Under the pieces are notes generated by a model that made no database searches, was not told the origin of the DNA, and was given only the letters and a program-made list of their open reading frames with translations. A stretch of 59,496 nt of DNA from a virus, in the IMG/VR virus record IMGVR_UViG_3300035670_000232, positions 1-59,496 of that record, one strand, 5' to 3'. Position 1 is the first letter of the stretch. Every line of letters starts with the position of its first letter. Of the stretch, positions 12,103 through 58,318 are shown in pieces. The position numbers and the translations under genes are program-made.

Positions 12103-12119
12103 CTACAATACCATTGTCC
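12103..12119 (-). promoter_or_regulatory. GGACAAT late-promoter-like motif 1
   Basis: Reads GGACAATGGTATTGTAG on the minus strand, 30 bases before the ATG at 12072. Shares the core and the final GTAG with six other copies. Heads the lysis-like block. Confidence 0.65.
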
Positions 12120-12136
12120 CGCAGCCCTGTCACAAG

Positions 12137-12475
12137 TTACGGATTGGGCAGATCCCCAGCTATTTCCCGCACGAAAGCAGGGGCGTCGTCAAGCTCAACA
12201 ACGAGCAGCCATTTCTTCTTGTTGCGCCTGTATAAAACCACGGGGATTTTCTCCCCGCATTCGGCCTTGGCCTGGGCCATGAACAGGTACGGGTTGCCGC
12301 TCTCGGTACGCTTGACCTCAACGTGGATGTTCTCGTGGCCGGTCACAATGTCCGGGGCTTCCGGCCCACCGTGATACTGTACCCCCCGCCGAGCCGGGAC
12401 GCAGAACAAACGGGACCATTCGCCCGCAGCCTCCCGCTCTCCGGCCTTACCCTTCTCACGCTGGCTTCGTCCCAT
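12137..12475 (-). CDS. PD-(D/E)XK nuclease, Holliday-junction-resolvase-like (112 aa)
   Basis: MGRSQREKGKAGEREAAGEW gives the conserved Glu helix; later APDIV supplies the Asp and IHVEVKRTES the E-x-K. The layout and length match archaeal Hjc-type and phage resolvase-like nucleases. It probably cuts branched DNA during recombination or before packaging. The start at 12475 overlaps the previous gene by 20 bases; an upstream in-frame start would lengthen this. Confidence 0.7.
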   Translation of the reverse strand: MGRSQREKGKAGEREAAGEWSRLFCVPARRGVQYHGGPEAPDIVTGHENIHVEVKRTESGNPYLFMAQAKAECGEKIPVVLYRRNKKKWLLVVELDDAPAFVREIAGDLPNP

Positions 12476-12941
12476 CCCTGGACTCCTTTGCTTCGGATAC
12501 CGCCCGGTCAACGCAGGCAATGGCAACAATCGCATGGCCCGCTATGTCTTGGAGGGTCTTGCGAATCTCCCTCCACTCCGCAGCACTGGCCCGCAATCCA
12601 TCCAGTCTGCCGACCTTCTCTCCGATCCTGGCAAGCTGGTACACCCACGGCTCAATGCCCTGGTCGCGGACCCGCATTGCGTTCTCAAGCGGATCTTGCG
12701 AGCAGGAATAGTAACTACGCTTATGGTCCAGCAGCCGCTGCATCTCATTGCACAGAGGCGGCCACGGCGATGACGTTGCCGTGCGAACAAACTCCTCAAT
12801 GCCGCGAATCTTTCCGGTGGCGTTCACCTTGGCGTACCATTCCTCCAGTGTTACTGGAGTGGAGTACGGGTCGCCATCGTCTTTCGCTGCCATAACAAAC
12901 CGCACGTTAGCGGACACCTCATCATCGTCTTCTAGTGGCAT
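12456..12941 (-). CDS. Nmad1/DUF1599-like or MazG-like protein (161 aa)
   Basis: The C-terminal two thirds (DHKRSYYSCSQDPLENAM ... GIEPWVYQLARIGEKVGRL ... EIRKTLQDIAGHAIVAIA) matches the helical pattern K..YY..., P.EN, .i.eK..RL, t..DiA.y of nucleotide-modification-associated and MazG-like phage proteins. These act on or near nucleotides. The N-terminal ~55 residues are acidic. Overlaps the neighbour by TAATG. Medium-low confidence without a profile search. Confidence 0.5.
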   Translation of the reverse strand: MPLEDDDEVSANVRFVMAAKDDGDPYSTPVTLEEWYAKVNATGKIRGIEEFVRTATSSPWPPLCNEMQRLLDHKRSYYSCSQDPLENAMRVRDQGIEPWVYQLARIGEKVGRLDGLRASAAEWREIRKTLQDIAGHAIVAIACVDRAVSEAKESRDGTKPA

Positions 12942-13597
12942 TACTTAATCCTATAGAGTGGTTCGATCCGGCCGCCATGCTCAGTCACCACCTTCTGCAA
13001 GGCGGCCTTGTCGAAGGACAGAGAGTGTACCTTGGTGTCCGAGGGGTCTGTCATGGCAATGCAGTAGGCGACTGGCTCGCCATTCAATGGACACATCTCA
13101 CGCAATCGCAATGTTGCGATAGTGTTCTCCTGCTCAGTAACTTTGTCATACGCATCACGCAGCTTGCGATCCAGGTATTCTAGCTGCGAGAAATCTCTGG
13201 CCTGTCTGTCCCTGAGAACCTTAAGGTCGGACTCCACGCTGTCCTGAGCCTTGTCCTTTTCTGCGATCTTCTCTAGCAGCCTTGATTTGTGGGCTCGGCA
13301 TTCATCCAACTCGGCCTTCAGCTTGTCGATGTCCTTCTTCAGCGACTTGTTGGTTGCCTGCTCAACCTTCAGTTCAAAGCTCGCCTGACCAAGTTGCTTT
13401 ACCAGATCAATCTCCGCGACTGGCTGGGATGGCTTTTCCTCAACGCGGTTCGTCTCGCTCCAGCACCCACAAGTTGCGTATGGCTCGGTGCGGTACTCAT
13501 TCCCTGGCACAGTCCATCGGTTGCACTTGCCGGTTGAACCAGGCTCCTTGCCAGCCTTCGGCCACCAGAACACGCATGTCTTGCACACCTGACTCAT
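12941..13597 (-). CDS. Zinc-binding coiled-coil protein (218 aa)
   Basis: The N-terminus carries paired cysteines (CKTCVFWWP ... GKCNRW ... CGCW), a probable zinc knuckle common in phage hypotheticals. Residues ~65-165 form a long charged coiled coil. The C-terminal ~50 residues (EPVAYCIAMTDPSDTKVHSL ... EPLYRIK) resemble a small beta-alpha domain found at the ends of phage proteins. Role unknown. Confidence 0.6.
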   Translation of the reverse strand: MSQVCKTCVFWWPKAGKEPGSTGKCNRWTVPGNEYRTEPYATCGCWSETNRVEEKPSQPVAEIDLVKQLGQASFELKVEQATNKSLKKDIDKLKAELDECRAHKSRLLEKIAEKDKAQDSVESDLKVLRDRQARDFSQLEYLDRKLRDAYDKVTEQENTIATLRLREMCPLNGEPVAYCIAMTDPSDTKVHSLSFDKAALQKVVTEHGGRIEPLYRIK

Positions 13598-13953
13598 CGC
13601 ACCCTCCTCTGTATGTAGTAATCGGCCAGCGGCTCGGGATCATATCCTAGCCACTTCTTCCTGACAAGACTGGCAAGAAACTCGGGGTCATAGTTCTTTG
13701 GGTCTACCTCCTGCTTCACCGTAAGGAGCATACCCTTGGTGAGGTCTGGCACTCCGTTCGGTGGGCCGAAGTGCAGTGTGTCGTGGCAGTCACCACATAG
13801 ACGCAAGAGATTCCTGCGGTCATGCTTGCGGCCAGCCGCGCCAACAAGATGATGGAACTGCAACCCCCTCCATCCTCCTGGTGAATGGCACACGGCACAC
13901 TTCGGCCAGAGGATAGAGAGCTTGCCAAACAGGATGGCTTCGTTCGGCTTCAC
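13594..13953 (-). CDS. HNH endonuclease (119 aa)
   Basis: CAVCHSP (~19) and CGDCH (~53) frame a zinc site; LQFHHLVG holds the HNH His pair and DRRNLLRLC the Asn, with the final His in DTLH. A complete small HNH fold. GTG start at 13953 overlaps the previous stop (GTGA), and the end is ATGA-coupled to the next gene. It may help terminase cut DNA or act as a general nuclease; it is far from the terminase genes. Confidence 0.75.
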   Translation of the reverse strand: MKPNEAILFGKLSILWPKCAVCHSPGGWRGLQFHHLVGAAGRKHDRRNLLRLCGDCHDTLHFGPPNGVPDLTKGMLLTVKQEVDPKNYDPEFLASLVRKKWLGYDPEPLADYYIQRRVR

Positions 13954-19746: not shown

Positions 19747-22700
19747 TCAGGGTGTCAAGAGGGCTTTCCCAAAAAAAACTTCCAGCGGGTCACGCTCGGC
19801 TTTTTTGCGTTCCCTAGCCCGCTTAGATGCCTCAGCCTGCATGATCCGGTAGTGCATGTACTGCCTACGTTGATCTTCAGAGAGCCGTGCGAGAGCCTCT
19901 TCCGGCACGTTGAGCGTCTCGTAGCTTTGGACGCCAGGCACTGTGCGAAGAAGTTCTGCGTAGGTGTCACGGGCCGCATGCTCCATAGCCTTGTTGCGAT
20001 CAATCGTGCGTAGCCCAGCGCCCACGAGCTTGTTGGCGATGAGCTTCTGCGCTCGCTCCATCGGCGACAGTCGCTCGTCAATAGCAGTGCGAACGATACC
20101 GGCAGCCTGGCCACCCCCTGGAACGTTCACGAGCAGTTGCTCTATATGGCGGCCTAAGGTTCCGAGCCCCGCCTTGTCCTCAAGCATGGAGTAGGTGTCG
20201 CTGAGTTCACGGCCCGAGTAAAGCTGGCGGTCCAGCAGCAACTCAAGCGGCGCCTTGACTGCGGGGTTCAGCATCCCAGCAAAGTTCATCCCGGTCTTCT
20301 GGAGTGCGTCAGTGACCTTCTCGTACAGCGTGCCGCCGATGCCAGGAGAGATGAGATTCACTGGGTCATAGGGCATGGTGATGCCGCTGATGACGTTGGC
20401 AAGGTTCGGGTCACTCCCTGCCGCACCTGGGATTTGGATAGCCGCTGACTTGCGGAGATGCTCTGGAAGGAAGGTGTCCTCGTTCGGGCGTGATGCGTTG
20501 GAGATTGCCCGAATCGTCCGGCCCTGCAATGCACCAGGCCGCTCAAGGATGTTCTCTACCACCGAAGGAATGATGCCACGGGGGTAGGAGTAGAAGGGGA
20601 TGAACCGCTTCAGCTTCCGCTCAAACTCCGTGAATGCGGCTGGACTGTAGTCGATCTGCGTCTTGGCCACTTTGGCAGCAGCGGCATCTGGCACGGCACC
20701 ACGGCGAATCTCACCGAGGTAGGTGCCTACGCGATTGGCGTCTTCCACTCGCTTGCCAAGTCGCTCGTTCCATTGCAGCAGCGGGTTGAGGGTCTCCTTC
20801 GGGGCAGCGCGTTCTTTAGCGATGCCAGCAAAGTCAACTCCGCGAACGGTCAGCCAGTCCATCCACGAACGGTCTTTGTCGTAGAGCTTCGGCCTAGTCT
20901 GGTCGCCCTGCCCAACAATGAATGCTCTGGTGTCAGCCCCCTCATTGATGAAGCCCTGCCCAAGGTCGTGACGACCAGACTCCATGAGGAACTTGTCGAT
21001 CCGCTGCTTGGTGTCCAGGCCCTCATAGCCAGGGGCTTTGGCAAGCCGCTTGGCGATGGCGTTGTAGTTGCCGCTCCCGGCCCGCATGCCAGCCCACCAG
21101 TCGGCCACGCGACCAGGGAGAGCCTTGAGCCCACCCTCGTCCGTGTTCATCATCGTGGACAGCAGGCCTGAGTACAGGTTGCGGAAGTGGTACGCGGGAG
21201 ACGCAAGCGCACCGACCTTGAACGAGCTTGTGTAGCTGTCGTACAGCCTGGTCAGCGGGTTGTCCTTGTTCAGCGCTTGCTGTGGGGCAACCTTCTTGAG
21301 GGCGTTGAGTTCGGATTCCGAGATGGAGTGGCGAGCCACATCCATGCCAGTCAGTTCCTCAAAGCGATTCTTGTTGAAGCCAATGTCCTTGAGGGCTTGG
21401 TCCATCGGGACGTAGCCACCGCCCTCAATCATGTCGGCAAGCTGCGGCCGGGCAGCAGCGGCAAGCCTGTCGCGCAGCATATCGGCCGCACCAACAGACC
21501 TGGCCTCGCCAAGCATGGAGCGAGCCATGTCGCTAACCACGCTGTTGTCGAACAGGCCAATGCCTTCCTGGGCGTGCTGGAGGTCGGCCTGCCTGAGCAG
21601 GTCGCCAAGCTCCGTCTTGAGTTGGCGTTGCTTGCCCGTCAGGAGATCCAGTGCGGATTGAAGTTTGGCTGGCTCGTCAATGTCCGGCGTGGCAAGAGCC
21701 CCCATGAGGGAGTCAATGGTTTGGCCCTCGTGCCGGATGTTCTGATATGGGGCCTCAAGGCCGAGGCTTGCAAACGCCTGGTCGATGATCGCAGGAGTGT
21801 CTGCTGGTGCAGCTTCGATCAGCCTTTGTTGCAGCCCCTCCACCTGCGGGTCCGTGAGGAGGCGGCGGAAGGTTTCCCGTGGGCGAACGATGTCGGTGTA
21901 CTCGCGTCGGCCCTTGCCAACGAGATCGTCAAGAGAGAACAGCCGCTCGCCTCGTTCATACGGAATCTTCTTGCGAGGATCGCGGTTCGGAATGACAGGA
22001 GCTTCTTCAGTGGCAAACCTCTTCACCTGGCGGGCCAGGTAGCTCGTGCCTTCATTGCTACCAAAGGACGCGGCGTTGAGCCCTGCGGCCTCTCGGTTGC
22101 GGAGAGACTCAAGGTTGCGGCGGTGCGACCAGTCGGCGAAGTCACGCCATGCCGGGGTGTTCATCACCAGATCCACAGCACTCTGGTCTGTGATGTTGGC
22201 AATGTTGGCCGGATCCATCCCGGCTTCGATCATGTCGGCAATGGCGTTCTGCACACGCTGGCTGTTGAAGTTGACGGCCTCGCCGCCCAACTCTCCTGTC
22301 ACGCCATCCGATGCACGGTAGACCTCACGGGCCAGTTCCTCGCGGGCATCGCCCATTGCCTTCTTCTGATTGGCGAACGCCTCGCGGGCAAGCCACTGAT
22401 CTGCACGGTCGGTCTGCCCCATGACTGTGGGGTCAAATGCCGCAATAGCACGAGTCGCCAGCGGGCCGGTGTACCTATTGGAGGCAAGTCCTTCGCCGAG
22501 CTTGTCGAATGCTCGTGCAATCGGGCGGCCAGCCTCGCCCGTGAGGATCGGAAGCCCGGTCTTCATACCAGGAATGCGGGCCTCCATCACGGCACCCAGC
22601 GTCTGATCCAGGAGGGAGTCAGCATCTAGCCCGGAACCTTGGGCGGCGCGGGTGAAGTTGGACAGTGCATCTTCGCGAGCCTGGCTGATGAGATCCTGCG

Positions 22701-23463
22701 GCGTGTACTGCGACAGGAAATCAGCCTCGTCCATCTCCAGCTTGCGGGCGCGGGCCAGCGACGAACCAAAGGCTTGGTGACGAACCGACTCAGGCAGGGC
22801 GTCAAGTGTGACATCCTCCAGCGGCACCGACGAGAACGGAGATCCAGGTGGGGGTGTGGATTCAGGGATCGCAGACAGCCACTTGTCCTCTGCGTCTCTG
22901 GCGATGTCGTCAATAAGGTCGTTGGGCGTGCGAGTCAGGAACGCCTCGCGAGGCCCGACGCCTGCCTTCCTGGCCTTGAGGGCGAAGTCATCCAGCAGCC
23001 CGGCCTTCTGGGCAACGCGAGCGGGAGCCCGTGTCGCACCACGACCCAGGATGGCCAGCGGGTTGAGGTAGGTTAGGGGGTCTAGGGCAATCTCACCAGC
23101 CAGGCCGCCAATCCAGTTGCCCCAGTTGTTGTCGTCGCCTACGAGGCCGTATTGCCTCAGAAGCTCCCGCCCATCCACCCGTTCGTCTGCTGTCTCCACA
23201 AGCGACGAGAGGGCCTTTCCTGGGCCTCCTGACAGGAGCCCTCGCACCATCGCCCCTGGGGTGTCCAGAATCCACCCGAGCCCTGCCATACCAGAGGCCG
23301 AGGCCCCGGCAACCTGGGCAAGAAGGGACTTCCTTTCCTCCTCGGGCATGAGATCCGCAAGGCCGGGCTTCTTGCGAACACGCCTGCCGTACTCATCGAA
23401 CTCAGGGATCAATGAGTCAAGCGGATCTACCCCGCCGTAGTAGTCCATCAACGGGGAGGACAT
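19747..23463 (-). CDS. Large virion-associated (probably injected) protein (1238 aa)
   Basis: The longest gene. Mostly helical, with hydrophobic Gly/Ala segments near residues 50-75 and 115-140. SSFKVGALASPAYHFRNLYS (~755) and FIPFYSYPRGIIPSVVENIL (~955) are sequence marks of large internal or injected virion proteins of podovirus-like phages. The end is strongly basic (ERKKAERDPLEVFFG). No lytic transglycosylase or protease motif is visible. Last gene of the tail block, next to another large protein; a DNA-ejection role is inferred. Confidence 0.6.
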   Translation of the reverse strand: MSSPLMDYYGGVDPLDSLIPEFDEYGRRVRKKPGLADLMPEEERKSLLAQVAGASASGMAGLGWILDTPGAMVRGLLSGGPGKALSSLVETADERVDGRELLRQYGLVGDDNNWGNWIGGLAGEIALDPLTYLNPLAILGRGATRAPARVAQKAGLLDDFALKARKAGVGPREAFLTRTPNDLIDDIARDAEDKWLSAIPESTPPPGSPFSSVPLEDVTLDALPESVRHQAFGSSLARARKLEMDEADFLSQYTPQDLISQAREDALSNFTRAAQGSGLDADSLLDQTLGAVMEARIPGMKTGLPILTGEAGRPIARAFDKLGEGLASNRYTGPLATRAIAAFDPTVMGQTDRADQWLAREAFANQKKAMGDAREELAREVYRASDGVTGELGGEAVNFNSQRVQNAIADMIEAGMDPANIANITDQSAVDLVMNTPAWRDFADWSHRRNLESLRNREAAGLNAASFGSNEGTSYLARQVKRFATEEAPVIPNRDPRKKIPYERGERLFSLDDLVGKGRREYTDIVRPRETFRRLLTDPQVEGLQQRLIEAAPADTPAIIDQAFASLGLEAPYQNIRHEGQTIDSLMGALATPDIDEPAKLQSALDLLTGKQRQLKTELGDLLRQADLQHAQEGIGLFDNSVVSDMARSMLGEARSVGAADMLRDRLAAAARPQLADMIEGGGYVPMDQALKDIGFNKNRFEELTGMDVARHSISESELNALKKVAPQQALNKDNPLTRLYDSYTSSFKVGALASPAYHFRNLYSGLLSTMMNTDEGGLKALPGRVADWWAGMRAGSGNYNAIAKRLAKAPGYEGLDTKQRIDKFLMESGRHDLGQGFINEGADTRAFIVGQGDQTRPKLYDKDRSWMDWLTVRGVDFAGIAKERAAPKETLNPLLQWNERLGKRVEDANRVGTYLGEIRRGAVPDAAAAKVAKTQIDYSPAAFTEFERKLKRFIPFYSYPRGIIPSVVENILERPGALQGRTIRAISNASRPNEDTFLPEHLRKSAAIQIPGAAGSDPNLANVISGITMPYDPVNLISPGIGGTLYEKVTDALQKTGMNFAGMLNPAVKAPLELLLDRQLYSGRELSDTYSMLEDKAGLGTLGRHIEQLLVNVPGGGQAAGIVRTAIDERLSPMERAQKLIANKLVGAGLRTIDRNKAMEHAARDTYAELLRTVPGVQSYETLNVPEEALARLSEDQRRQYMHYRIMQAEASKRARERKKAERDPLEVFFGKALLTP

Positions 23464-26514: not shown

Positions 26515-29178
26515 TTACGCTGCGTAAGATGGACCCGCTGGCCGCATGCCGACACGAATGATTTGAGAAGAAGGCTTGGGCTTACCGACCCAGTGGGAGA
26601 TGTCAGCGTTCGGGCCAAAGAGGCCAGTCTGACGAATCGTGCTATCAAACAGCCCGCCAATCTGGCCAGCAGTCTTGTCCCCCTGCCGGAAAATATCTCC
26701 AACCAGGCCAGACACTGGCGACAGCATCCCGCCCACTTGGTCGTAGAAGTTCTGGTTCCCAAGGCTGGAGTTCCAGAGCGAGTTGAGTTGACCGTAAGCC
26801 TGGCTTGGATCAGACGACGAGCCGCCCTGAATGGAACCAGCCAGAGCGTTCAGTGCCTCTCGGTCACGGTCGAAGTTGGCCCAGTTCTGCGGGTTCAGCT
26901 GCGCGCTGTAGAACTGATTCATGCCATCATCCATGGCACTGCGTCCGCTGGACAGCATCCCATTGAGGCCGGTCAGCGTCTGACCGAGCATCGACTGCGG
27001 GACACCGGCTTGCGACTGGAATCCTCGCTCAAGCTGGCCCCGAGCCGTGGCGTCTTGGTCATTCAACTGCGAGAGCAGTGAGGAAGTCTGCAACCCGATG
27101 CGATCCATGTCGCCGCGAGTGGTGTTGCCTACATCCGCAAGGGACGAGTCAAGTCGGCTGCCGACGTTGTTCATGAGCCCGGTGGTCTGGGATTCGATGG
27201 CAGCACGCTTGGCGTCAGCGGAACTTCCAATCTGAGACACAAGCCCCCGACCAGAAGATGCAAGCTCCCCGGTCTGCCTCGCCATGCTGTCGTCAATGCC
27301 GCCGAGAAGGCCCTGGCCGATTGATCCAATGCGGTCCATCGCGCTGCCCATCTTACTGCCGATGGAGCCCATTCCGGTGGAGGCTTGATTGGCAATGGCG
27401 CCCATGCCGCTCGTCATGGAGCCGCCGATGCTGCCCATGTCTCGGTCGGCGTCAGCGGAAAGCATACCGAGAAGCCCGCGAGTGCTGCCGTCGATTGAGC
27501 CAAGAGTGCTGCCAAGGCGGCTGTCAATCGCACTAGTGCCAAGGCCAGTCTGATTGGCGATGTCGCCCATGCGGCCAGCCATCGAACTTTCAATCTGGCC
27601 AAGGTTCCCAGAGTTCATCCCGCCAAGCTGGCCGAGGGTCTGCCCGAGAGTAGCAGTGTTGTTGCCGTACCCCGAGTTCGCATGACCGGCCACACGATCC
27701 ATGGCGTTGTTCGCCATTGCGGCAAGGTCAGCGCCGTATTGGCCATAGTTGGTGCCGCCGTTGAAGTTGAAGTTGAGCCCGCCGCCACCCAGTCCCCAGC
27801 CGCTTGCAATCGGACCATTGACGCCAGTTGCATTGAATGCGCCGCTGCCGCCCATGCCGCTCAAGGCACCAGAAACCATGCCAGCACGGCCGAGATTCCC
27901 GGAGGCACCAATAGCTGCCTGTCCAAGGAGGGCGTTGGAGTCAAGGGCTCCACGGGCGATTTGGCCCACGTTCGCAAGACCAGCCTGGTTAGTAAGGCCA
28001 GCAGCCTGAAGGCCAGCCTGGGACGATCCGCCCATCGCAGAAAGCCCGGCCTGAGATGCGCCGTTCATGGCGTTGAGGCCAGCCTGCTGCGTAGCCCCCA
28101 TTGCATTCATGCCAGCGTTCGCAGCCCCGCCCATGGCGCTAAGACCGGCCTGCGATGTTCCGCTCATGCCAGCTTGGCGAGCCTGGGCTGCTGCACCCTT
28201 CGCCGTAAGACCAGCCTGGCCGAGCATGCCTGAAGCCTGGAGCCCATTGGACCCCATATTCCCCATGGCCTGGAGCCCGGCCTGCGATGTTGCCCCAAGC
28301 GAATTGGTGACGCCTTGGCCTACAATGCCTTGCGACTGAAGGCCAGCGACATTGGTGTTGCCCATCGCGTCCATCATTGCGCGTGAGGCTTCACTCATGC
28401 CCTGAAGTCCAGCCGTGTTGGTCAGCCCAGCCGACTGAAGCCCGGACTGGCCAATACCGCCCATCGCACCAAAAGCCGACGAGCCAAGCTGGCCCTTTGC
28501 CTGAAGGCCAGCGTTACTCGCAAGCCCCTGAGCATTGAGCCCCGATTGACCGAGAGAGCTTCCGGCCGCCTGGTTTGCAGCCTGCATGTCCGACAGGGCC
28601 TTCATGTAGCCAGCAGTCTGCATGGCTTGAGCCTGCTGCGCTGCACTAGAGGCGCTTCCGAAAGAGGCAAGGCCCTGCCCATACATCTGCGAAGCGCCGT
28701 GCTGACGGGCGGCCTCGGCCATGGCGTTGGCGCCGTAGAGATTGCCTCGCTCGTTTGCTTGAGCCTGAGCGAGATCGCTGTAAGCACCACCAAGCTGCGC
28801 GAGACTTGATCCTCGCATAGCATCTGAGGTCGTGCTTGAACGATAAATGTCAGCGAGCGACTGAGCAAAGCCAACGGGAGCCTGAGCAAAAGAGTTCATT
28901 GCCCCGCCCATGGCATTGGCCATCGCCCCGCCAATCTGGCCAGCCGCCTGGTACTGCCCAGCCGCGTTGCCGCCAATGGCATTGGCAAACATTCCAGGCT
29001 GCTTGTAGAGCGTATCCAGAATCCCGGCCTGTCCCTGGAGTCGCGACTGCTGGGTGGCCTGGTTGGCGTTATTGATGCCGACGAGCCCGGCCACATGCGA
29101 ACTGTAGGCGTCCATCGCTGGACCCCAAGCCGCTGGATTGCCACTAAGCCACGACGGGTAAGCTGGGATTTGAGTCAT
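26515..29178 (-). CDS. Long Gly/Ala-rich hendecad-repeat virion protein (887 aa)
   Basis: Residues ~210-430 repeat an 11-residue unit of the type QAGLSAMGGAS (six near-perfect consecutive units, more degenerate ones before them). Residues ~500-720 hold a second looser repeat of the IGSKMGSAMDRIGSIG type. Both suggest long amphipathic helices, as in a fibre or an internal coiled structure. A complete GGACAAT motif lies 10 bases upstream and includes the ribosome binding site region. Probably a tail fibre or ejected protein. Confidence 0.6.
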   Translation of the reverse strand: MTQIPAYPSWLSGNPAAWGPAMDAYSSHVAGLVGINNANQATQQSRLQGQAGILDTLYKQPGMFANAIGGNAAGQYQAAGQIGGAMANAMGGAMNSFAQAPVGFAQSLADIYRSSTTSDAMRGSSLAQLGGAYSDLAQAQANERGNLYGANAMAEAARQHGASQMYGQGLASFGSASSAAQQAQAMQTAGYMKALSDMQAANQAAGSSLGQSGLNAQGLASNAGLQAKGQLGSSAFGAMGGIGQSGLQSAGLTNTAGLQGMSEASRAMMDAMGNTNVAGLQSQGIVGQGVTNSLGATSQAGLQAMGNMGSNGLQASGMLGQAGLTAKGAAAQARQAGMSGTSQAGLSAMGGAANAGMNAMGATQQAGLNAMNGASQAGLSAMGGSSQAGLQAAGLTNQAGLANVGQIARGALDSNALLGQAAIGASGNLGRAGMVSGALSGMGGSGAFNATGVNGPIASGWGLGGGGLNFNFNGGTNYGQYGADLAAMANNAMDRVAGHANSGYGNNTATLGQTLGQLGGMNSGNLGQIESSMAGRMGDIANQTGLGTSAIDSRLGSTLGSIDGSTRGLLGMLSADADRDMGSIGGSMTSGMGAIANQASTGMGSIGSKMGSAMDRIGSIGQGLLGGIDDSMARQTGELASSGRGLVSQIGSSADAKRAAIESQTTGLMNNVGSRLDSSLADVGNTTRGDMDRIGLQTSSLLSQLNDQDATARGQLERGFQSQAGVPQSMLGQTLTGLNGMLSSGRSAMDDGMNQFYSAQLNPQNWANFDRDREALNALAGSIQGGSSSDPSQAYGQLNSLWNSSLGNQNFYDQVGGMLSPVSGLVGDIFRQGDKTAGQIGGLFDSTIRQTGLFGPNADISHWVGKPKPSSQIIRVGMRPAGPSYAA

Positions 29179-29187: not shown

Positions 29188-29204
29188 CTACAGGACTATT
29201 GTCC
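29188..29204 (-). promoter_or_regulatory. GGACAAT late-promoter-like motif 2
   Basis: Reads GGACAATAGTCCTGTAG, the consensus form, followed by GAGC and the ATG at 29178. Confidence 0.7.
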
Positions 29205-33154: not shown

Positions 33155-34278
33155 TACACACCCCTATCTGATTCAAGGGGGATCGTCCATCCGCCGTCAG
33201 CCCAGAGGTAGCGAGCCCGGCCCGACAGTGGGGCGAGTTGCTCCTGCTCAAACGCCAGCCGCATGTCACGCTGGTAGAGCGAATACGCCTCCTCGGTCTT
33301 GCCGCCACGAATCCTAGCAAGCCAATACTCAGAGGCGCTACGCACAACCTGGTGCATGTGTGGCGCAACGTCAATCGGATCAGTGACGAGGTAGTATGTG
33401 CCAGACGCAATGGTCCCGGACGGCGCAGTGATCGCTGTCGTGGAATCGCGATCCGTAATAAGCGACTCAGAAACCCATGGGTTCAGGGACTCCATTGGCC
33501 CCGGAACGGCAGACGTATCGCCAACACGAAGAATCGACCCAACCATCGCGTCCGTGAATAGAGTACTGGTTCCAGTAACCGCACTGCCGGTACGGGCAAT
33601 CGTTCCCGTGCGAGCCACTGCTTCGTGGCCTGAGTACCGCAAGGTTCGCGGAGTGCGGCGATAGGTGAAGTCCAGAGTCTGCACTGTGGACGGGTAGCCA
33701 TAGACCTTGATCGCCCAGCCATTGGAGTCCGGGTCTTTGATGATCGTCCAGTGAAATGGATCGCCAGAGGTCGGCGAGATGCGATCCAGCTTCATGGCTT
33801 CATCTGGCGAGATGTAGCAGCCCATACTAGAGTTGTTCTCGTCGCTCGGAACATCTAGGTTGCGGAAGTCTGAAGGCAATGCGTAGACGCTGCGGTACAG
33901 CGTGTACGACTCGTCAGTCACATCGGCCTTGAGCGTCAGCACGGAGTCCAGGACAATCACCGAGCCGGATGTGCGAGATGCAACGCGGCAGATTTCATCG
34001 TTGACTTTGAGGTACGCACCAGTCGCAGCCCACGAAGGCCAGGTTCCGCCCGTGAGCGTGACCGTCACCCCAGACGAAGTGATGGTTCCCGTGGAATACG
34101 GAGCCGATGTGATGATTCGGCAATGCGTGCTAAACCACCACCAGTCTCGCAGCGTGCAGACTTCCTGGTAGCCGCGAAGAACGGCCTGGCGAACATCTCT
34201 TTGCTCGGCGTCTTGCGCTCCACCAAAGGAGGCAATGACCAGATTCTCTACGGCGTCAAAAAAGGTGAAGTACGGCAT
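33154..34278 (-). CDS. Head-tail adaptor / tubular-A-like protein (374 aa)
   Basis: The N-terminus (DVRQAVLRGYQEVCTLRDWW) matches the helical bundle of P22 gp4-like and tubular-A-like adaptors, in which A..A...v....dW is conserved. The middle is beta-rich, including VTVTLTGGTWPSWAATGAYL. The C-terminal PHMHQVVRSASEYWLARI...EEAYSLYQRDM resumes the bundle. The ATG coincides with position 16 of a GGACAAT motif, so no ribosome binding site fits. Confidence 0.65.
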   Translation of the reverse strand: MPYFTFFDAVENLVIASFGGAQDAEQRDVRQAVLRGYQEVCTLRDWWWFSTHCRIITSAPYSTGTITSSGVTVTLTGGTWPSWAATGAYLKVNDEICRVASRTSGSVIVLDSVLTLKADVTDESYTLYRSVYALPSDFRNLDVPSDENNSSMGCYISPDEAMKLDRISPTSGDPFHWTIIKDPDSNGWAIKVYGYPSTVQTLDFTYRRTPRTLRYSGHEAVARTGTIARTGSAVTGTSTLFTDAMVGSILRVGDTSAVPGPMESLNPWVSESLITDRDSTTAITAPSGTIASGTYYLVTDPIDVAPHMHQVVRSASEYWLARIRGGKTEEAYSLYQRDMRLAFEQEQLAPLSGRARYLWADGGWTIPLESDRGV

Positions 34279-34293
34279 ACTAGGCTATTGTCC
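34279..34293 (-). promoter_or_regulatory. GGACAAT late-promoter-like motif 3 (leaderless)
   Basis: GGACAATAGCCTAGT runs straight into the ATG at 34278, so the conserved A at position 16 is the start codon's A. Confidence 0.7.
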
Positions 34294-37384: not shown

Positions 37385-37923
37385 GCTGACTTTTCCTTGG
37401 GCTTCCAGGCGTGCTTCTCAATGACCATCTCACGAAGCTCGCCAGCCTTCTTGCCTGGGAACTTCTTCTTGTATTCCTTCACCCGGTCGCGGACGAGATC
37501 CTCTGCCATCACTGTCCGCTTCGGTGGCGGTGCGGATTCTGGGGAGTAGTCCACAGCCCCCTGAACATGGAGCCGACGCTTCTGGGCGACCTTCTTGATG
37601 TCGTCAACGCCGCTAACCCACGCCTCCGGGTCACGCCAACGCCGCTTGTCGGCCAGGCCGCCACAGTAGAACTTGCCCTCAATGGAGATCCCCGCCGCCC
37701 TGGCCTCTTTGGCGAGCCATTTAGCCTGGACGGGGGGCAATGCGTCAAGCTGCTGGTTGTTCATCCGGCCCTGCATGAAAGCACGGTCCAGACCCTTTAC
37801 GCCAGGAGGAGCCTGAAGCGCCAGCATCTCTGCGAAGCGGGGCGAATTGCCAGCCTCTACGAGCTTCCGGTAGCGGGCCTGGATTTCGGGCCTGGCGTCT
37901 TGGATGTCAAACGGGAGTTCCAT
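37381..37923 (-). CDS. Hypothetical protein after portal (180 aa)
   Basis: Highly charged and helical, with Lys/Arg-rich C-terminus (KRTVMAEDLVRDRVKEYKKK). AKWLAKEARAAGISIEGKFYCGGLADKRRW in the middle looks like a conserved core shared with marine phage hypotheticals. The ATG is exactly at position 16 of motif 4, suggesting a leaderless transcript. Role unknown. Confidence 0.6.
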   Translation of the reverse strand: MELPFDIQDARPEIQARYRKLVEAGNSPRFAEMLALQAPPGVKGLDRAFMQGRMNNQQLDALPPVQAKWLAKEARAAGISIEGKFYCGGLADKRRWRDPEAWVSGVDDIKKVAQKRRLHVQGAVDYSPESAPPPKRTVMAEDLVRDRVKEYKKKFPGKKAGELREMVIEKHAWKPKEKSA

Positions 37924-37938
37924 ACTAAGCTATTGTCC
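37924..37938 (-). promoter_or_regulatory. GGACAAT late-promoter-like motif 4 (leaderless)
   Basis: GGACAATAGCTTAGT followed by ATG. The first nine bases are also the codons GGA CAA TAG, the Gly-Gln-stop end of the portal gene. Confidence 0.7.
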
Positions 37939-39918: not shown

Positions 39919-41348
39919 TGATCCTGCATTGCGGAGGCGGCAATCGGGGCAGCAATGGCAGCGCCAATGCCGTTCTGGAGAATGTTTCGACGCATGGCAT
40001 CCGACATGATGTAGCGCCGTCCAGGGGCGGGGAGCGGCGGGTCGCCCGTAAAGAAGTTACCGGCATAAAGCCACGCATCCTCCATGGCGTCCTGCCGCCT
40101 TGGGGCAACAGAAGCCAAATGAACCATAGCTGAGTTAATCTCGCTTTCGGACTTCCCTAGCTGGCGAAGGCTGTTCCGAATGCGCTCGCCTTCTCGCACA
40201 GCAAGCCCTGGAATCCCACTCCGTATCGCTTCGCCAAGGTCTATAACGGACATGCGACCAATGCGCGGATCATACGAAGAGTCATAGGCACTTACCTCGT
40301 CCATAAGCCTTGCGTAGTCGGGGTCGGCAGTTGTCCCGGCAACAGGCTTGCCACCGCGAGGGTTCGCAGTGCCTTCCGTAAGCCCGCCCATTTTGCGGCC
40401 TAGCCGCTCTAGCGACCCAGGGATAACCTTGCCATAAAAGTGTTCGTAGTTGTCGATGTTGCCGCCAACCTTATCTGCTATAGACCTTGGGCTGGCAACT
40501 TCAATAGCACGGTGTCCACCTCGTGCGGCCTCTAGGGCAAGCCGCTTGATGAGCATGTCAGCCCATGCGTCCTCAAGCGGGAACGGGGCCGGGCGATTAC
40601 CAACAGGCACGCCAGAAGCTATGTATGGAGCTATCTTTTCGCGAATCTTTCGGTTGTGGATGCCGAGGTCAGACTGAAGCTCATTGATTCGCAGCGCATC
40701 GCCGTGAGTGTCGTACCTTGCATGAGCAACGGCATTGGGCTGATTAGACCAATGATTGCCGAACGATCCTGGGCTGTCTGGTTGCGTCAACAAAAGCTCA
40801 GTGTAGTCTTGGCCGCCCTGCCCGTACTGGTCATACCGCGCCGGACCAGATGGCGTTCCTCGTCCTATCGGCTGTGGCGTGCCGTCAAGGCCCAGGCCCT
40901 GCCTGGAAGCGTCTTGCCCGTGAATCCAAAAGGCGTTGTCGTCACCAAGCGTCGGCCTGCCCCATTCGTCAGGGTGCGGCTCAGTGCGAAGCATGACCTC
41001 CTTGTGCGTGTACACAGGGCTACGCTCTCGCACGGCATCCAGCAAGTCCTGTCGCGGAACCTTCTTGGAGTCACCAACCACACCAGGCAAATTGACGGCG
41101 TTCAACTCCCAGCCAGGGACGCCTTCCTTGTGTCGCTTAAGGAGTCCTGGGATGTCCTGCACTGGGACTGTCGGCGGCATTGCTTCGACGGCACGCTCAA
41201 GCCTGGAGTAGATTCCTGGGCCTGGGTTGTACCCAATACGAAGCGGGACCGTTTCCTCTAGCCGCTTTGCTAGCGCCTCGGCCCTGGCAATCTGCGATGC
41301 AAGGTCGCCAGCGGCAGCAAGACCGGCTATAGCTTTAGGGCTAGGCAT
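39915..41348 (-). CDS. Portal-adjacent polyvalent-like protein, EIQSD-type domain (477 aa)
   Basis: Residues ~215-320 carry INELQSDLGIHNR, AWADMLIKRLALEAARGGHR and NYEHFYGKVIPGSLERLGRK. These match a domain (EIQSD ... W..L..k..l..A...G ... fYdk.lp..l.k..kk) common in large phage polyvalent proteins next to portals. Fold and activity are unknown to me. Ends in Ala-rich IGAAIAAPIAASAMQDQ. The ATG is at position 16 of motif 5. Confidence 0.6.
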   Translation of the reverse strand: MPSPKAIAGLAAAGDLASQIARAEALAKRLEETVPLRIGYNPGPGIYSRLERAVEAMPPTVPVQDIPGLLKRHKEGVPGWELNAVNLPGVVGDSKKVPRQDLLDAVRERSPVYTHKEVMLRTEPHPDEWGRPTLGDDNAFWIHGQDASRQGLGLDGTPQPIGRGTPSGPARYDQYGQGGQDYTELLLTQPDSPGSFGNHWSNQPNAVAHARYDTHGDALRINELQSDLGIHNRKIREKIAPYIASGVPVGNRPAPFPLEDAWADMLIKRLALEAARGGHRAIEVASPRSIADKVGGNIDNYEHFYGKVIPGSLERLGRKMGGLTEGTANPRGGKPVAGTTADPDYARLMDEVSAYDSSYDPRIGRMSVIDLGEAIRSGIPGLAVREGERIRNSLRQLGKSESEINSAMVHLASVAPRRQDAMEDAWLYAGNFFTGDPPLPAPGRRYIMSDAMRRNILQNGIGAAIAAPIAASAMQDQ

Positions 41349-41363
41349 ATAGGACTATTGTCC
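41349..41363 (-). promoter_or_regulatory. GGACAAT late-promoter-like motif 5 (leaderless)
   Basis: GGACAATAGTCCTAT then ATG at 41348; it begins three bases after the TGA of the upstream gene. Confidence 0.7.
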
Positions 41364-48679: not shown

Positions 48680-49732
48680 TCAGATTACTCCATCTTTTTC
48701 AAACTGTCGGGCCAAATGCTCCTCAAAACTCATGCGACCTTTCGGCGCACGAGGCTCGCCAGCACCCGCTGAACGATTGGTCTTGCGTGTCGCTCGTTCC
48801 CGAAGGAACTGGGCCTCAGCACTCATTGGCCGGGCCACTGGAATCGGCTCTTGCACAGGCGGCTGATACATTGGCTGCATCGGAGCCTGGGCCATCATCT
48901 GCCGCTGCATGTTGATGAGGTCGGCACGAAGCATCGAAGTGGCGTATCGCCAACGAGCATTCGGGTCCGTTACGCCCATCTCCGCAGCGTCGGCGATGTA
49001 CCGCTGAATCGCCACACCTTCTTGCGAAGGAACTCCAGGAGCAGCGTAAAGCCAATCGGCATTTTGCTGCTCAAGGTCTTTGACGAAGTTCTGGGTCTGG
49101 TACTGGCTGAGTTGCTCGCGAACAAGCTCTTGGGCAATCCGCTTTGCCTCGCCTTCAACGAAAGGCTTCAGCGTGTTCTCGGGATCAGTGACCAGCTTGC
49201 GAGCAAAGTTCGCCGTGTAGTCCTGGTATCGCTGAATCGCTTCCTTCGCGTGAAGAGGAGCGTTCGGGTCAATCATCTCCCGGCCCGTCTCCGGGTTGCG
49301 GATGATGTACGACTTGAACGTCTCGTCAAGCTGCGGAGGGTTCCACCACTTGGGCTGCTCAGGCTGCGGGGCAGGAGCCTGGGCTTGAGCCTGCGAAGCC
49401 TGCCATCGCTGGAATGCTTCTTGGTTCTCGTAGAATTTCCGGCCGTATTCGGCGTACGGCACCAGTTGTTGATACTGGGCCAGTTGCCGCTGGGCTTCCT
49501 GGTATCCAACGCGACTGGAGTACAGTTCGCGAGCGATGTCCAGGTCTGATCGGCCTTGGAACTCAGGAAGTTCCCGGAATGCTTCGTATGGCGACTGATA
49601 GCCACCGGACTGCGCGGGGGACGAATCGCCAACTGGAGCTTGACTGTCTACAGGCGAGTCGCTAACTGGGTGCGCATCGGCAACCGCAGTCGTGTCAGGA
49701 GAGCCGGAATTGAAGTCTTGTTCGTCGTCCAT
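48680..49732 (-). CDS. Scaffold protein (350 aa)
   Basis: ATG at 49732 (MDDEQDFNSGSPDTT). An acidic, Ser/Pro/Gln-rich N-terminus precedes a long helical region and a basic C-terminal end (RKTNRSAGAG ... MSFEEHLARQFEKDG), the usual scaffold plan with a capsid-binding tail. It immediately precedes the capsid gene. A divergent GGACAAT motif lies 30-47 bases upstream. Confidence 0.75.
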   Translation of the reverse strand: MDDEQDFNSGSPDTTAVADAHPVSDSPVDSQAPVGDSSPAQSGGYQSPYEAFRELPEFQGRSDLDIARELYSSRVGYQEAQRQLAQYQQLVPYAEYGRKFYENQEAFQRWQASQAQAQAPAPQPEQPKWWNPPQLDETFKSYIIRNPETGREMIDPNAPLHAKEAIQRYQDYTANFARKLVTDPENTLKPFVEGEAKRIAQELVREQLSQYQTQNFVKDLEQQNADWLYAAPGVPSQEGVAIQRYIADAAEMGVTDPNARWRYATSMLRADLINMQRQMMAQAPMQPMYQPPVQEPIPVARPMSAEAQFLRERATRKTNRSAGAGEPRAPKGRMSFEEHLARQFEKDGVI

Positions 49733-49761: not shown

Positions 49762-49779
49762 CTACAAAGACTTTTGTCC
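49762..49779 (-). promoter_or_regulatory. GGACAAT late-promoter-like motif 6
   Basis: GGACAAAAGTCTTTGTAG, one base longer and with one core change; it heads the scaffold-capsid operon. Confidence 0.6.
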
Positions 49780-49807
49780 ATATACCCCTAGTTTTGTTAC
49801 AGCACGG

Positions 49808-51572: not shown

Positions 51573-51589
51573 CTACAGGGCTATTGTCC
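51573..51589 (-). promoter_or_regulatory. GGACAAT late-promoter-like motif 7
   Basis: GGACAATAGCCCTGTAG, 18 bases before the ATG at 51554. Its GGA CAA TAG is the Gly-Gln-stop end of the phosphoesterase gene. Confidence 0.7.
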
Positions 51590-52654
51590 CTTCCCCCTGA
51601 GATCGCGGTCGCAGAACAGCGGGAATGCCCGAGTCACCTCGTTTCGCCCGTGGTCGATCACGAACGCAGCCTGGCAAGGGGGCTCGTAAGTGGCCTTGAT
51701 CCTGACTGCGTAGGCAGAGTGGCCAATCACGGATCCGTTGGTCACATACCGACCAGACCGGCTCCACGAGAACTGGTGCCAGTGGCCGATGCACGTTAGG
51801 TCAGCCTTGTGGGAAACATCCCACGCCGCGATGGCTTTGTGAAGCGGGACATGGATTCCGCCAATGCCCCCCTGGTAGCGGATAGCGTGTCCATGACAGA
51901 AGCGGATGTTGTACCCGTCCAGATCGACGTAGTTTAGATGGCCTTCGCCAATCTTCCACTCCACGTTGTTGTGACGCTCGGCAGCGCGCATCGTGAGGTA
52001 CAGGTGCTGTTCGTAGCTTGTGGCCGCTTCATTGGTGCGCTGCTTCTCAGTTGTCCTTCCGTGGTTGCCGCATGATGTCGCCACAACAACTTCGCTTGCA
52101 TTCTCTGCTGCCAGATCAACGAACGCACGCATCCGTTCCCCGATCCACCTCAAAGCCGGTAACGGATGGAGAGCGTTTTCTTCTTGGAGTTCGGGGTGGA
52201 TCATGCCCGTGATGAGATCGCCTCCGAGCCACATGCACACGCGGTCAATGCGGCAAAGGGATCGCTCATGCTCCAACACCCGCAAGAACCGCTCTTGCAG
52301 TTCGGTGATCCTGCGGTCGCAGATGTCAAGGTTGTACTCGTTGAGTCCGTTCACGCTTTCCGGCTTGACCGTTTCTTCGCAGTGAATGTCAGACAAGAGA
52401 ACGACAAGCGTTGCTGGGTTGCGGCTGTCGGACTTTGTGGCCTTGACCTTGCCCTTCTTGGGCTTGATGTCTTGTAGGGCCAAGAGGGAGGCAGCCTTTT
52501 CCTTCTCCCGATCCACCTGTCCGAGAGCGACCTTGTACTGCCCTCTCAGTCCAGCAATCTCTGCCTTGAGGCGCGCGATCTCTGCGTCCTTGACGAGATG
52601 CTTCTCAAGCTCAACGGCATTGGCGATGTCATTTACAATGTCCTGTCGTACCAT
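51581..52654 (-). CDS. Calcineurin-like metallophosphoesterase (357 aa)
   Basis: N-terminal ~60 residues are a coiled coil (KHLVKDAEIARLKAEIAGLR). The catalytic domain shows LSDIHCEE (Asp89, His91), LGGDLITG (~144), GNHGR (~196), CHGH (~254) and GHWHQFS (~290), the complete two-metal phosphoesterase set. It may act on DNA ends, nucleotides or phosphoproteins. Its position among head-side genes is unusual for a replication enzyme but seen in other phages. Confidence 0.85.
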   Translation of the reverse strand: MVRQDIVNDIANAVELEKHLVKDAEIARLKAEIAGLRGQYKVALGQVDREKEKAASLLALQDIKPKKGKVKATKSDSRNPATLVVLLSDIHCEETVKPESVNGLNEYNLDICDRRITELQERFLRVLEHERSLCRIDRVCMWLGGDLITGMIHPELQEENALHPLPALRWIGERMRAFVDLAAENASEVVVATSCGNHGRTTEKQRTNEAATSYEQHLYLTMRAAERHNNVEWKIGEGHLNYVDLDGYNIRFCHGHAIRYQGGIGGIHVPLHKAIAAWDVSHKADLTCIGHWHQFSWSRSGRYVTNGSVIGHSAYAVRIKATYEPPCQAAFVIDHGRNEVTRAFPLFCDRDLRGKGQ

Positions 52655-53202: not shown

Positions 53203-53219
53203 CTACGAGATTATTGTCC
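53203..53219 (-). promoter_or_regulatory. GGACAAT late-promoter-like motif 8
   Basis: GGACAATAATCTCGTAG, ending on the TAG stop of the upstream gene and 33 bases before the ATG at 53170. Confidence 0.6.
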
Positions 53220-53712
53220 GGCCCGCCAGATTAGTGGCGTGTTTTCCCGCGTTTTCTGCAAAAGCCCATTTAGAGGCTAAGGAAAGAGCAACGGCAGAAC
53301 AGATCAAAACCCTGCCTTTCCAGCGAGAAAACGCCAGTTTCCTCTTTTCGGCCTCGGCTGCCATGACGCCAAGAATCTCGGGCATATTGCGGAGGCACCA
53401 CCACTCCCCCATCTCGTCCATCTTCTTGGCCATCTTGTTGCACTTGCAGCCGTGCTTGGCCACGATGCGGAACCACGAGAGAAGCCACTTTGTCCACGAG
53501 CCTGGTCCGGTCCCGGATACTGGAGGCTCAAGGGCACAGTGAGAGCGAGCCCGGCCATGAGGGGCGCGGAACTCCTTCTTGCATCGGCGGCACTTGGCCC
53601 AGCCGTCGCGAAAGATGAGATCGCATTCAAGTCGTTGTGATGTCTGCACCGGAAACGTCCAGCCCAAGAGATGATGAGGTTGGAATCCCGCTTGCTGCTT
53701 CGTCGCAGTCAT
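53203..53712 (-). CDS. Zinc-ribbon hypothetical protein (169 aa)
   Basis: RDGWAKCRRCKKEFRAPHG has a CxxC knuckle, and GCKCNKMAKKMDEMGEWWC resembles the C-x-C...M...G...C motif of a small phage and bacterial family. The end (RVLICSAVALSLASKWAFAE) is hydrophobic. It overlaps the previous gene by 86 bases in another frame. Function unknown. Confidence 0.55.
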   Translation of the reverse strand: MTATKQQAGFQPHHLLGWTFPVQTSQRLECDLIFRDGWAKCRRCKKEFRAPHGRARSHCALEPPVSGTGPGSWTKWLLSWFRIVAKHGCKCNKMAKKMDEMGEWWCLRNMPEILGVMAAEAEKRKLAFSRWKGRVLICSAVALSLASKWAFAENAGKHATNLAGRTIIS

Positions 53713-54352: not shown

Positions 54353-54766
54353 TCACCTCGGCCAGTTCTGCGCGGCCCACGCACCCATATTGGCAGCCTG
54401 CTGCATGGCGCCTGGGAAGTTTTGAATGATCCAGTCAAGCCTCTGGATGAGTTGCTGCTGCGGATCAGTCTCGGGCTGTTGAGGCGGTGCTGGAGGCTGA
54501 GGAGCTTCCCAGTCGTTCCATCGGTGATTGCCTTGTGCGCCCCATGAACGCAACGATTGACGGGCTCGCTCTTGAATCAAATCTTTCTGGGCCTGGCTGC
54601 CGGGAGTCACGGCTGCCGGATCTACCCCGGCACGCTCGGCCGAGAAGGTGTCGATGTTCTTTGCCAAACGCTCTCGGCGAATTCGCTCTTGCTGCTCGGC
54701 GCGGGCCTGTTGGTCTTGATACCGCTCTCGCTGAATGTCCTCAGCGGTTTTGCGCATGAATGCCAT
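54353..54766 (-). CDS. Hypothetical helical protein (137 aa)
   Basis: Begins MAFMRKTAEDIQRERYQDQQ; a long charged helix in the first ~75 residues, then a Pro-rich linker (APQPPAPPQQPETDPQQQ) and a C-terminal helix. Likely a small virion or scaffold-type protein. GTAGGAGGAATCAATG gives both the tail of motif 9 and a perfect ribosome binding site. Confidence 0.55.
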   Translation of the reverse strand: MAFMRKTAEDIQRERYQDQQARAEQQERIRRERLAKNIDTFSAERAGVDPAAVTPGSQAQKDLIQERARQSLRSWGAQGNHRWNDWEAPQPPAPPQQPETDPQQQLIQRLDWIIQNFPGAMQQAANMGAWAAQNWPR

Positions 54767-54775: not shown

Positions 54776-54792
54776 CTACGGAATCATTGTCC
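54776..54792 (-). promoter_or_regulatory. GGACAATG late-promoter-like motif 9
   Basis: GGACAATGATTCCGTAG then GAGG; the ATG at 54766 is 9 bases after the motif. GGA CAA TGA is the Gly-Gln-stop end of the upstream gene. Confidence 0.6.
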
Positions 54793-55866: not shown

Positions 55867-55874
55867 GTCTGGGC

Positions 55875-55902: not shown

Positions 55903-55910
55903 GCCACGCC

Positions 55911-57035: not shown

Positions 57036-57342
57036 CGTTCACGAACTCCTATCCCGGTTGTGTAAGTCAACTGGGAAGTGGGGCATGTACCTTTCCTGGT
57101 ACGCTGAAGACTATGACGCTGGCGAGGAAGTCCCCTTGGCCTGCCCGCTCATAAGCCGAGAAACAGCCATCATCAGCGACTGGGCCTACGTCTTTTTCGA
57201 CACCGAAGCCGAGCTAGACGACGCTTTCGACCTGACCGTTGGAGACGATGGCCCAACGCCATCAAACCGCTACGACGGAGAAGCCCGTGTCTACGCCCTG
57301 ACATGCAGCAACACCGGGCAAATCCTCACTGAGAACACATGA
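57019..57342 (+). CDS. Acidic hypothetical protein (107 aa)
   Basis: ATG at 57019 (MDMLTDVHELLSRLC). Strongly acidic with KWGMYLSWYAEDYDAGEEVP and a beta-rich C-terminus. A DNA-mimic role is imaginable from charge alone but unsupported. Coupled to the next gene by ATGA. Confidence 0.5.
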   Translation: MDMLTDVHELLSRLCKSTGKWGMYLSWYAEDYDAGEEVPLACPLISRETAIISDWAYVFFDTEAELDDAFDLTVGDDGPTPSNRYDGEARVYALTCSNTGQILTENT

Positions 57343-57530
57343 GCGAACCATCCAAAAATCCGAGAGAGTTCATCTGCCCGCACTGCGGATCCAAGGTAGA
57401 CCCCGATGACAGGGAGGAGGCAACCGTAGGCAGTTGGGGAAACCGCTGGCCGCACGTTACCTGTCAAAACTGCAAGGAATGCTGTGGGTGCATCGCCTGG
57501 CGGGAGCCGGTGACAAAAACCCCTGCATAA
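57339..57530 (+). CDS. Zinc-ribbon protein (63 aa)
   Basis: REFICPHCGSKVDPDD and HVTCQNCKECCGC give two CxxC pairs about 28 residues apart, a classic small zinc ribbon. Last plus-strand gene. Possibly a restriction-alleviation (Lar-like) type protein, which share this layout; not certain. Confidence 0.65.
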   Translation: MSEPSKNPREFICPHCGSKVDPDDREEATVGSWGNRWPHVTCQNCKECCGCIAWREPVTKTPA

Positions 57531-57596
57531 AGCAGCAAGTGCATGGGTTTCGTAACAGGACACCCGAATACACCCAGGGTGTACCAGGGAGCCGGG

Positions 57597-57618
57597 AACC
57601 AAAGCATCGGGAGCTACC
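57597..57618. repeat. 22-bp direct repeat, left copy
   Basis: AACCAAAGCATCGGGAGC followed by TACC; 21 of 22 bases match the copy at 58319. It contains the stop codon of the gene at 57614-58303. Confidence 0.8.
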
Positions 57619-58303
57619 AAGAGTTCTTGGTGCCAGCCTGGGATGCCTTGTATTCCTCCCAAGACATGGGTTGCGCGTCTGGAATAGCCTGGGACATCCA
57701 CGGATTCGGCCGTGCTTCTGCGGCCCTGCGGTGTTCCTCAGCCTGCGCGGCGCGTTGCTTGCGGATCTCCTCGTCGCGCTTCCTGGCCTGGGCGACAGCT
57801 TCGTCCTCGGCCTGCCGGTACTTCTGCTTCCGGTACGACCGCGACGAAGTTGGCTCGTCCATCTTCGCCCCACTAGCCGACGCTGGAGCCTGCGGCCACG
57901 CCGGGAGCGGTGCGTTCTTCTCTGGCTTCCCCCAGTTTCCTCCGAACTGATGGCCTAAGTCCTCAAGGAACTCGCCCCTCGTCGGAGGCCGCCAGTTTCT
58001 GGCAACCACACCGCGAGCGTAGGTATCAAGAGCCGCCTGCTTCTCAGGGTTCAATGGCCGATTGTCAGCCAATCTCTCCCTGGCTGCCCGACTCGCGGCA
58101 CTCTCGGAAGGCTGATTGCCCCAACCACCCCAAGAAGACCCACTCCAAGGAGAAGGAACCCCAACCATCTCTGGCATAGGCCCAGCCTCTGGAGCCACCT
58201 CAATCGACTCCGGGGAGTACGGCACCCCACCAACAGTCGAAACAGGGGGAAGCTGGGCATCCAGCCGTGACAGCAACCAAGCAACGTAGTGACGAGCGTC
58301 CAT
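57614..58303 (-). CDS. Hypothetical protein on a repeat-flanked module (229 aa)
   Basis: ATG at 58303, at position 16 of a GGACAAT motif, so probably leaderless. Gly/Pro/Trp-rich first half (SPWSGSSWGGWGNQP), then a long charged helix (KQKYRQAEDEAVAQARKRDE). Similar in style to the small virion proteins of the late block, yet placed apart from them beyond opposing plus-strand genes. The 22-bp repeats at its ends suggest a mobile or moron-like module. Confidence 0.6.
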   Translation of the reverse strand: MDARHYVAWLLSRLDAQLPPVSTVGGVPYSPESIEVAPEAGPMPEMVGVPSPWSGSSWGGWGNQPSESAASRAARERLADNRPLNPEKQAALDTYARGVVARNWRPPTRGEFLEDLGHQFGGNWGKPEKNAPLPAWPQAPASASGAKMDEPTSSRSYRKQKYRQAEDEAVAQARKRDEEIRKQRAAQAEEHRRAAEARPNPWMSQAIPDAQPMSWEEYKASQAGTKNSW

Positions 58304-58318
58304 GAAAGACCATTGTCC
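58304..58318 (-). promoter_or_regulatory. GGACAATG late-promoter-like motif 10 (leaderless)
   Basis: GGACAATGGTCTTTC directly followed by ATG at 58303; it touches the right 22-bp repeat at its upstream side. Confidence 0.65.

Follow-up and report, generated by a model that had tools for sequence, protein, structure and literature searches.

Ten motif copies in the window and the relatives of its phage

The stretch of DNA analyzed here (the window) comprises an entire virus record, 59,496 bases long, on the minus strand of which ten copies of a short motif lie directly before genes; a gene for a putative phage sigma factor is located at 8035-8661 (Table 1). All ten of the copies listed in an earlier sequence-only reading, in which they had been taken for late promoters, were found letter for letter at their places, as was the A at position 16 counted from the first G in nine of them (at position 17 in the tenth, 49762-49779), and in four of the copies (34279, 37924, 41349 and 58304) this A is indeed the A of an ATG. 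As the A of the ATG would then be the +1 itself, the predicted message would carry neither a leader nor a ribosome-binding site. The copy at 49762 appears to serve both 48680-49732 and the major capsid gene. When scored with a 12-column matrix built from them, the ten copies reach 15.6-19.8 bits, the next-best window site (14.1 bits) being on the plus strand, antisense inside a gene, and matches of at least 12 bits number 10 on the minus and 2 on the plus strand, compared with about 1.2 per strand in shuffled sequence; as this matrix derives from the very sites that it scores, the true test lies in the relatives.

Table 1. Putative late promoter elements and the sigma factor gene of the window (position 16 is counted from the first G of the motif; +1, predicted transcription start).
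Feature	Position	Strand	Details
Putative phage sigma factor	8035..8661	-	sigma-70 region 2, region-4-like C-terminus; proposed promoter reader
Putative late promoter core GGACAATGGTATTGTAG	12103..12119	-	predicted +1 12104; 30 nt to ATG of 11809-12072
-35-like GTAAC of the 12103 promoter	12136..12140	-	
Putative late promoter core GGACAATAGTCCTGTAG	29188..29204	-	predicted +1 29189; short leader with GGAG before 26515-29178; orthologous gene carries the promoter in 18 genomes
Predicted leaderless late promoter	34278..34293	-	position 16 (34278) is the ATG A of 33154-34278
Predicted leaderless late promoter	37923..37938	-	position 16 (37923) is the ATG A of 37381-37923; TAG (37930-37932) is the portal gene stop codon
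Predicted leaderless late promoter	41348..41363	-	position 16 (41348) is the ATG A of 39915-41348
Putative late promoter variant GGACAAAAGTCTTTGTAG, 1 nt longer	49762..49779	-	predicted +1 49763
-35-like GTAAC of the 49762 promoter	49796..49800	-	GTAAC/GGAAC kept before the orthologue in relatives
Putative late promoter core	51573..51589	-	predicted +1 51574; TAG 51581-51583 is the stop of 51581-52654
Putative late promoter core	53203..53219	-	predicted +1 53204; TAG 53203-53205 is the stop of 53203-53712
Putative late promoter core	54776..54792	-	predicted +1 54777; leader with GGAGG before 54353-54766
Predicted leaderless late promoter	58303..58318	-	position 16 (58303) is the ATG A of 57614-58303

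The structural region of the window showed no DNA match among annotated phages, and neither DNA nor capsid searches returned cultured relatives; the terminase matched Microbacterium phage Shocker and a Roseobacter phage, though only weakly. Protein searches yielded 26, and later 66, related viral contigs, many of them near 60 kb, so that the phage seems to represent an uncultured group with genomes of about 60 kb that is found in many metagenomes; a search for relatives with an alignment of the sigma family was successful, one with the single sigma sequence unsuccessful. The family set comprised 31 genomes, i.e., the window and 30 retrieved relatives, each whole or nearly whole, in which genes were called with a simple in-house codon-usage caller on which the gene starts rest. 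A gene order of recombinase, sigma, replication genes and then structural genes is common to the relatives. One phage contig and one small contig were also seen in a Pirellulaceae metagenome-assembled genome (MAG), and capsid matches in a Planctomycetia and an Ignavibacteriales MAG, all of these being binned contigs.

Distribution of the motif across the phage family

Each genome was scanned using an 11-column matrix built exclusively from the other genomes (leave-one-genome-out) and a cut-off of at least 10 bits, which gave 133 sites in the 77 kb upstream of late-strand genes, none in the 39 kb upstream of early-strand genes and 273 in the remaining 3.1 Mb of the 31 genomes, the 133 sites comparing with about five expected from the density elsewhere. 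The weight-matrix search that the sequence-only reading had proposed thus places the motif upstream of late-strand genes family-wide, the motif clearly not being equally frequent inside genes or on the other strand, and the promoter reading gains independent support from the 30 relatives. What had to be revised is the extent of the element, as the conserved core is GGRCANTRGTC (with C4, A5 and T7 conserved in 98-100% of the family sites), and not the ACAATA alone that had been likened to a -10 box. The sites precede 40 different gene families, orthologous sites being related by descent, and sit before the structural and packaging operons, most of the replication block, and the genes of the opposite strand, being without them. 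Among Pirellulaceae MAG contigs that had not been used in training, three 16.6-bit sites with both the T-A step and the G at -36 described below were found on a phage contig (C68) and one on a further contig (C178). An unguided MEME-like search of the upstream regions converged on the Shine-Dalgarno signal instead and was abandoned.

The consensus of the window copies, GGAC-N4-GTCC, forms an inverted repeat whose center is about 10 nt away from the start, and in N4 virion-polymerase promoters the start likewise lies about 10 nt from the center of the hairpin, which might hint at an element read by a phage RNA polymerase, be it a single-subunit one or one using N4-like hairpin promoters. The arms of the dyad, however, do not covary, Watson-Crick pairing being equal to expectation at all four pairs, on which ground the N4-type hairpin promoter was rejected; the DxDGD motif is absent from the family proteins, and for the sole giant protein that is conserved (19747-23463), neither PDB nor Pfam gave a significant match, which leaves a phage polymerase as the reader highly improbable. 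That no phage RNA polymerase was recognized is a soft negative, as a Pfam search for T7 polymerase gave no match but was uninformative, its positive control being silent too.

Start-codon distances, the T-A step and the upstream element

The distances from the first G of the motif to the start codon are far from continuous: 12 (one site), 14 (12 sites), 15 (20 sites), 20 (three sites), 24-27 (62 sites) and 30-53 nt, with no start codon at 16-19 or 21-23 nt at any of the family sites in the 31 genomes. Such gaps are what would be expected if transcription started at position 15 or 16, and the genes were either leaderless or preceded by a leader with a Shine-Dalgarno sequence. The leaderless class proposed for the window recurs in the relatives, amounting to 32 sites in 15 gene families and 22 genomes, always with ATG as the start codon, the 5' end of the mRNA being deduced from promoter geometry; a Shine-Dalgarno-like sequence is seen in 16% of this class versus 94% of the 24-27 nt class. 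The gene caller rewards Shine-Dalgarno sequences and is therefore biased against leaderless starts. As for the four window genes concerned, the start methionine of 37381-37923 aligns across 17 orthologues, and 13 members of its family have the promoter at 12, 14 or 15 nt, while most orthologues of 33154-34278 start at the same place or within two residues. Most orthologues of 39915-41348 start some 20 residues later, the leaderless ATG being the only ATG near the N-terminus of the window gene, and 57614-58303 has no relatives within the genome set.

Both the T-A step and the upstream bases lie outside the matrix columns and were never seen by the scoring model. A T-A step at positions 14-15 or 15-16 is present in 59-89% of the upstream sites, compared with 5% of the early-strand matches and 16% of the other late-strand matches; of the non-leaderless sites alone, 50% have it at 14-15 and 26% at 15-16, with hardly any at the next positions. 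The relatives consequently lend support to a start at position 16 as had been suggested from the window, although the start may also be at position 15. These same data bear on whether the element might instead act in RNA, as a translation signal or a repressor site, for which its constant proximity to start codons and frequent overlap with the upstream stop codon could speak; yet the element varies between 14 and 53 nt in its distance from the start codon while keeping a fixed one to the T-A step, nearly abuts the ATG at leaderless genes where there is no Shine-Dalgarno sequence, and exhibits no pairing covariation, so there would seem to be very little chance of it acting in this manner.

The assertion of the sequence-only reading that no common -35 element is visible turned out to be wrong, as in the window a G lies at -21 from the motif in eight of the ten copies, two of which have GTAAC. 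Across 149 family sites, this G is found in 66% (p 8e-19) and a C at -17 in 54%; after the removal of similar upstream sequences, the G remains clearly the strongest of 240 column tests (45/70, p 6e-9), the C being marginal (32/70, p 0.005). With the start at position 16, these two positions correspond to -36 and -32, and G at -36 is present in 61-71% of upstream sites versus 34-37% of matches elsewhere. The full GNAAC occurs at the expected -35 place in 13 of the 149 sites, and many relatives have GTAACAAAA or GGAACAAAA as this element ahead of the 48680-49732 orthologue, resembling the GGAAC-type -35 box of extracytoplasmic-function (ECF) promoters. The -35 signal is weak and displays no trade-off with the -10 score across the sites (Spearman 0.03), but since such an element exists, the promoter would not be of a pure -10-only type.

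The probable phage sigma factor and comparison with known systems

The sequence-only reading had regarded the protein of the sigma-like gene as a possible reader of the motif, and its membership in the sigma-70 family is borne out by the relatives; the assignment rests on the family, as the window member alone is weak (E 0.05 to Sigma70_r2, below the Pfam cut-off). Pfam Sigma70_r2 is found in 10/10 family members (best 6.5e-10) and above the cut-off in 20 of the 22 genomes tested, the PHROG sigma factor matches 9/10 and the PHROG late sigma (phrog_234) 8/10 members, and Sigma70_r4 appears in 3/10 at E<=1 (best 0.0027). The best match of the family profile is FliA (2e-6), T4 gp55 being matched weakly. 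An AlphaFold model of the window protein (pLDDT 78) has C-terminal helices at 127-171, the relative placement of its two domains being unsure, and its top Foldseek PDB matches are almost all sigma factors, many of the ECF type, with SigL and SigH as the first two and sigmaE also included (probability up to 1.00, E 0.0026-0.1, with low whole-chain TM). With some 200 aa arranged in two helical domains, the protein would suit the ECF layout of regions 2 and 4 and no region 1.1 or 3, yet the best profile match is to FliA. Judged by these profile matches, the 8035-8661 family belongs to the sigma-70 family, and one clear copy is present in 22/22 genomes tested (a second, weak match in three), these being the ones of sufficient completeness.

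The -36/-12 layout and the presence of the sigma in every tested genome make it the likely reader of the late promoters. This link draws on co-occurrence and layout only, and real promoters recognized by a sigma of the host, possibly assisted by an activator from the phage, would leave an identical genome pattern. However, the motif is unlike any housekeeping -10 box, and in a 7.2-Mb Pirellulaceae bin that includes one of these phages exact matches are confined to the phage contig (three) and one 4.96-kb contig (one), one-mismatch matches are at or below a reversed control, and no enrichment of the motif was found in the bacterial sequence of the bin; reading by a host sigma is thus deemed unlikely. 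What we consider best in line with the above, at a probability of roughly 0.82, is a set of dedicated late promoters that would be read by the phage's own sigma factor, with transcription starting at the T-A step and some of the messages being leaderless; that they act late is likewise our inference.

Mechanistically, the small phage sigma (region 2 and a region-4-like part, approximately of ECF size and layout) would join the host core RNA polymerase and bind an extended -10 element, GGRCANTRGTC (-15 to -5), in which C-12 and A-11 are nearly invariant, as well as a weak -35 GNNNC, at best GTAAC/GGAAC (-36 to -32). The first base of the RNA would be the A of the T-A step, which lies 15-16 bases from the first G; at about one fifth of the promoters the ATG would fall exactly on this A, giving a leaderless mRNA, and most others would have a leader, in many cases of just 9-12 nt, whose first bases include a Shine-Dalgarno sequence. 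Somewhat speculatively, and at less than even odds, the sigma and its promoter class might even be designed to make transcription and translation begin at the same point. If true, many late virion proteins would be made from leaderless mRNAs by 70S-type initiation, in other late mRNAs the Shine-Dalgarno sequence would lie no more than a few bases from the 5' end, and a single DNA element would fix where transcription and translation begin and, in many cases, also determine the upstream stop codon.

Among cultured phages, a few are known to encode a sigma factor with late promoters of its own; this uncultured group would add a motif recognizable by eye, a conserved late promoter set and leaderless starts that recur among the structural genes. 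Literature searches returned no account in which leaderless late promoters are linked to a phage sigma. The system offers a testable sigma-promoter pair, lets late operons be read directly from metagenomic contigs, and could be used to study, in a natural setting, the reasons for and the timing of leaderless translation in phages.

The T4 late promoter TATAAATA is a -10 element without a -35. The T4 late/gp55 system and the window family would share a short -10-centered element, a small phage sigma and the host core, but the family has a region-4-like helix-turn-helix, a -35 signal, a different motif and, unlike T4, no known requirement for a sliding clamp; a T4-type late promoter was rejected as a candidate, the motif being GGRCANTRGTC with a weak -35 and not TATAAATA. 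The better -35 copies of the family share their spacing and GGAAC/GTAAC form with bacterial ECF promoters having a GGAAC-type -35, from which the family differs in the weakness of this element and in an unusually long, strong -10 region (GGRCANTRGTC).

By analogy, phiEco32/SU10 can be regarded as the closest working analogue, given that, in the passages of the paper drawn on here, phiEco32 gp36 is a phage sigma, about 200 aa in size, with an ECF-type annotation, and a short motif, tAATGTATA, lies 6-8 nt upstream of middle and late gene starts (PMC4281155), so that both systems combine a phage sigma of this size with a short motif near starts; the window portal also weakly matches the SU10 portal model. 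The two motifs are unrelated in sequence, gp36 and the window sigma family show no similarity by hhalign or by hmmsearch (the latter with E 0.15 in a one-sequence search and a negative score), and the same passages describe neither leaderless starts nor a -35 box (PMC4281155), unlike what is predicted for the window family. The late promoters of AR9, AACA-(6N)-TA/G, start at the last base and are read by a phage multisubunit polymerase, with leaders of 26-491 nt, and phage transcripts are, according to the same paper, often leaderless (PMC5312081). AR9 and the window family thus have in common a short element, a fixed gap and then a TA/G start, but AR9 pairs it with a phage polymerase and leaders of that length, whereas in the window family the starts would in part be leaderless.

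Stop codons and base choice within the late promoter

The stop codon of the preceding gene often falls inside the late promoter, as it does at four promoters of the window (see the table), and, among the 149 sites pooled over the window and the related phage genomes, it occupies motif positions 7-9 at 20 and positions 14-16 at 16. At motif position 3, G predominates in three family genomes (G002, G037 and G040), whereas A stands there without exception in four others (G032, G033, G004 and G012), a split that offers a possible lead for sigma-promoter co-evolution.

Features discussed, in window coordinates
Feature	Coordinates	Strand
Upstream-gene stop codons within late promoters	37930-37932, 51581-51583, 53203-53205, 54784-54786	minus
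Early-strand gene pair	1947-4072	plus
Recombinase gene	7416-8228	plus
Sigma factor gene	8035-8661	minus
Gene run ending in the sigma gene	8035-12072	minus
Late promoter heading that run	12119	minus
Large conserved protein	19747-23463	minus

Surroundings of the sigma gene

The sigma gene converges with, and overlaps by approximately 190 bp, a gene for a recombinase of the integrase/DNA-invertase type, and the two also adjoin each other in relatives. As the sigma gene is the last member of a run headed by a late promoter, its product could reinforce its own expression in the window phage; such a promoter-headed run is mostly missing from the mapped relatives.

Other genes and host hints

The large protein (1,180-1,250 aa) is kept in every one of the 21 near-complete genomes, and searches of Pfam, PHROGs and PDB sequences found nothing that matches it significantly. 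The two neighbouring early-strand genes, weakly matching the amidoligase and glutamine-fructose-6-phosphate aminotransferase families, were not found in the relatives examined. A Pirellulaceae MAG contains a 55-kb phage of the same family (L183, contig G041:C68), and capsid relatives are present in one Planctomycetia and one Ignavibacteriales MAG, placements that provide no more than hints of the host.
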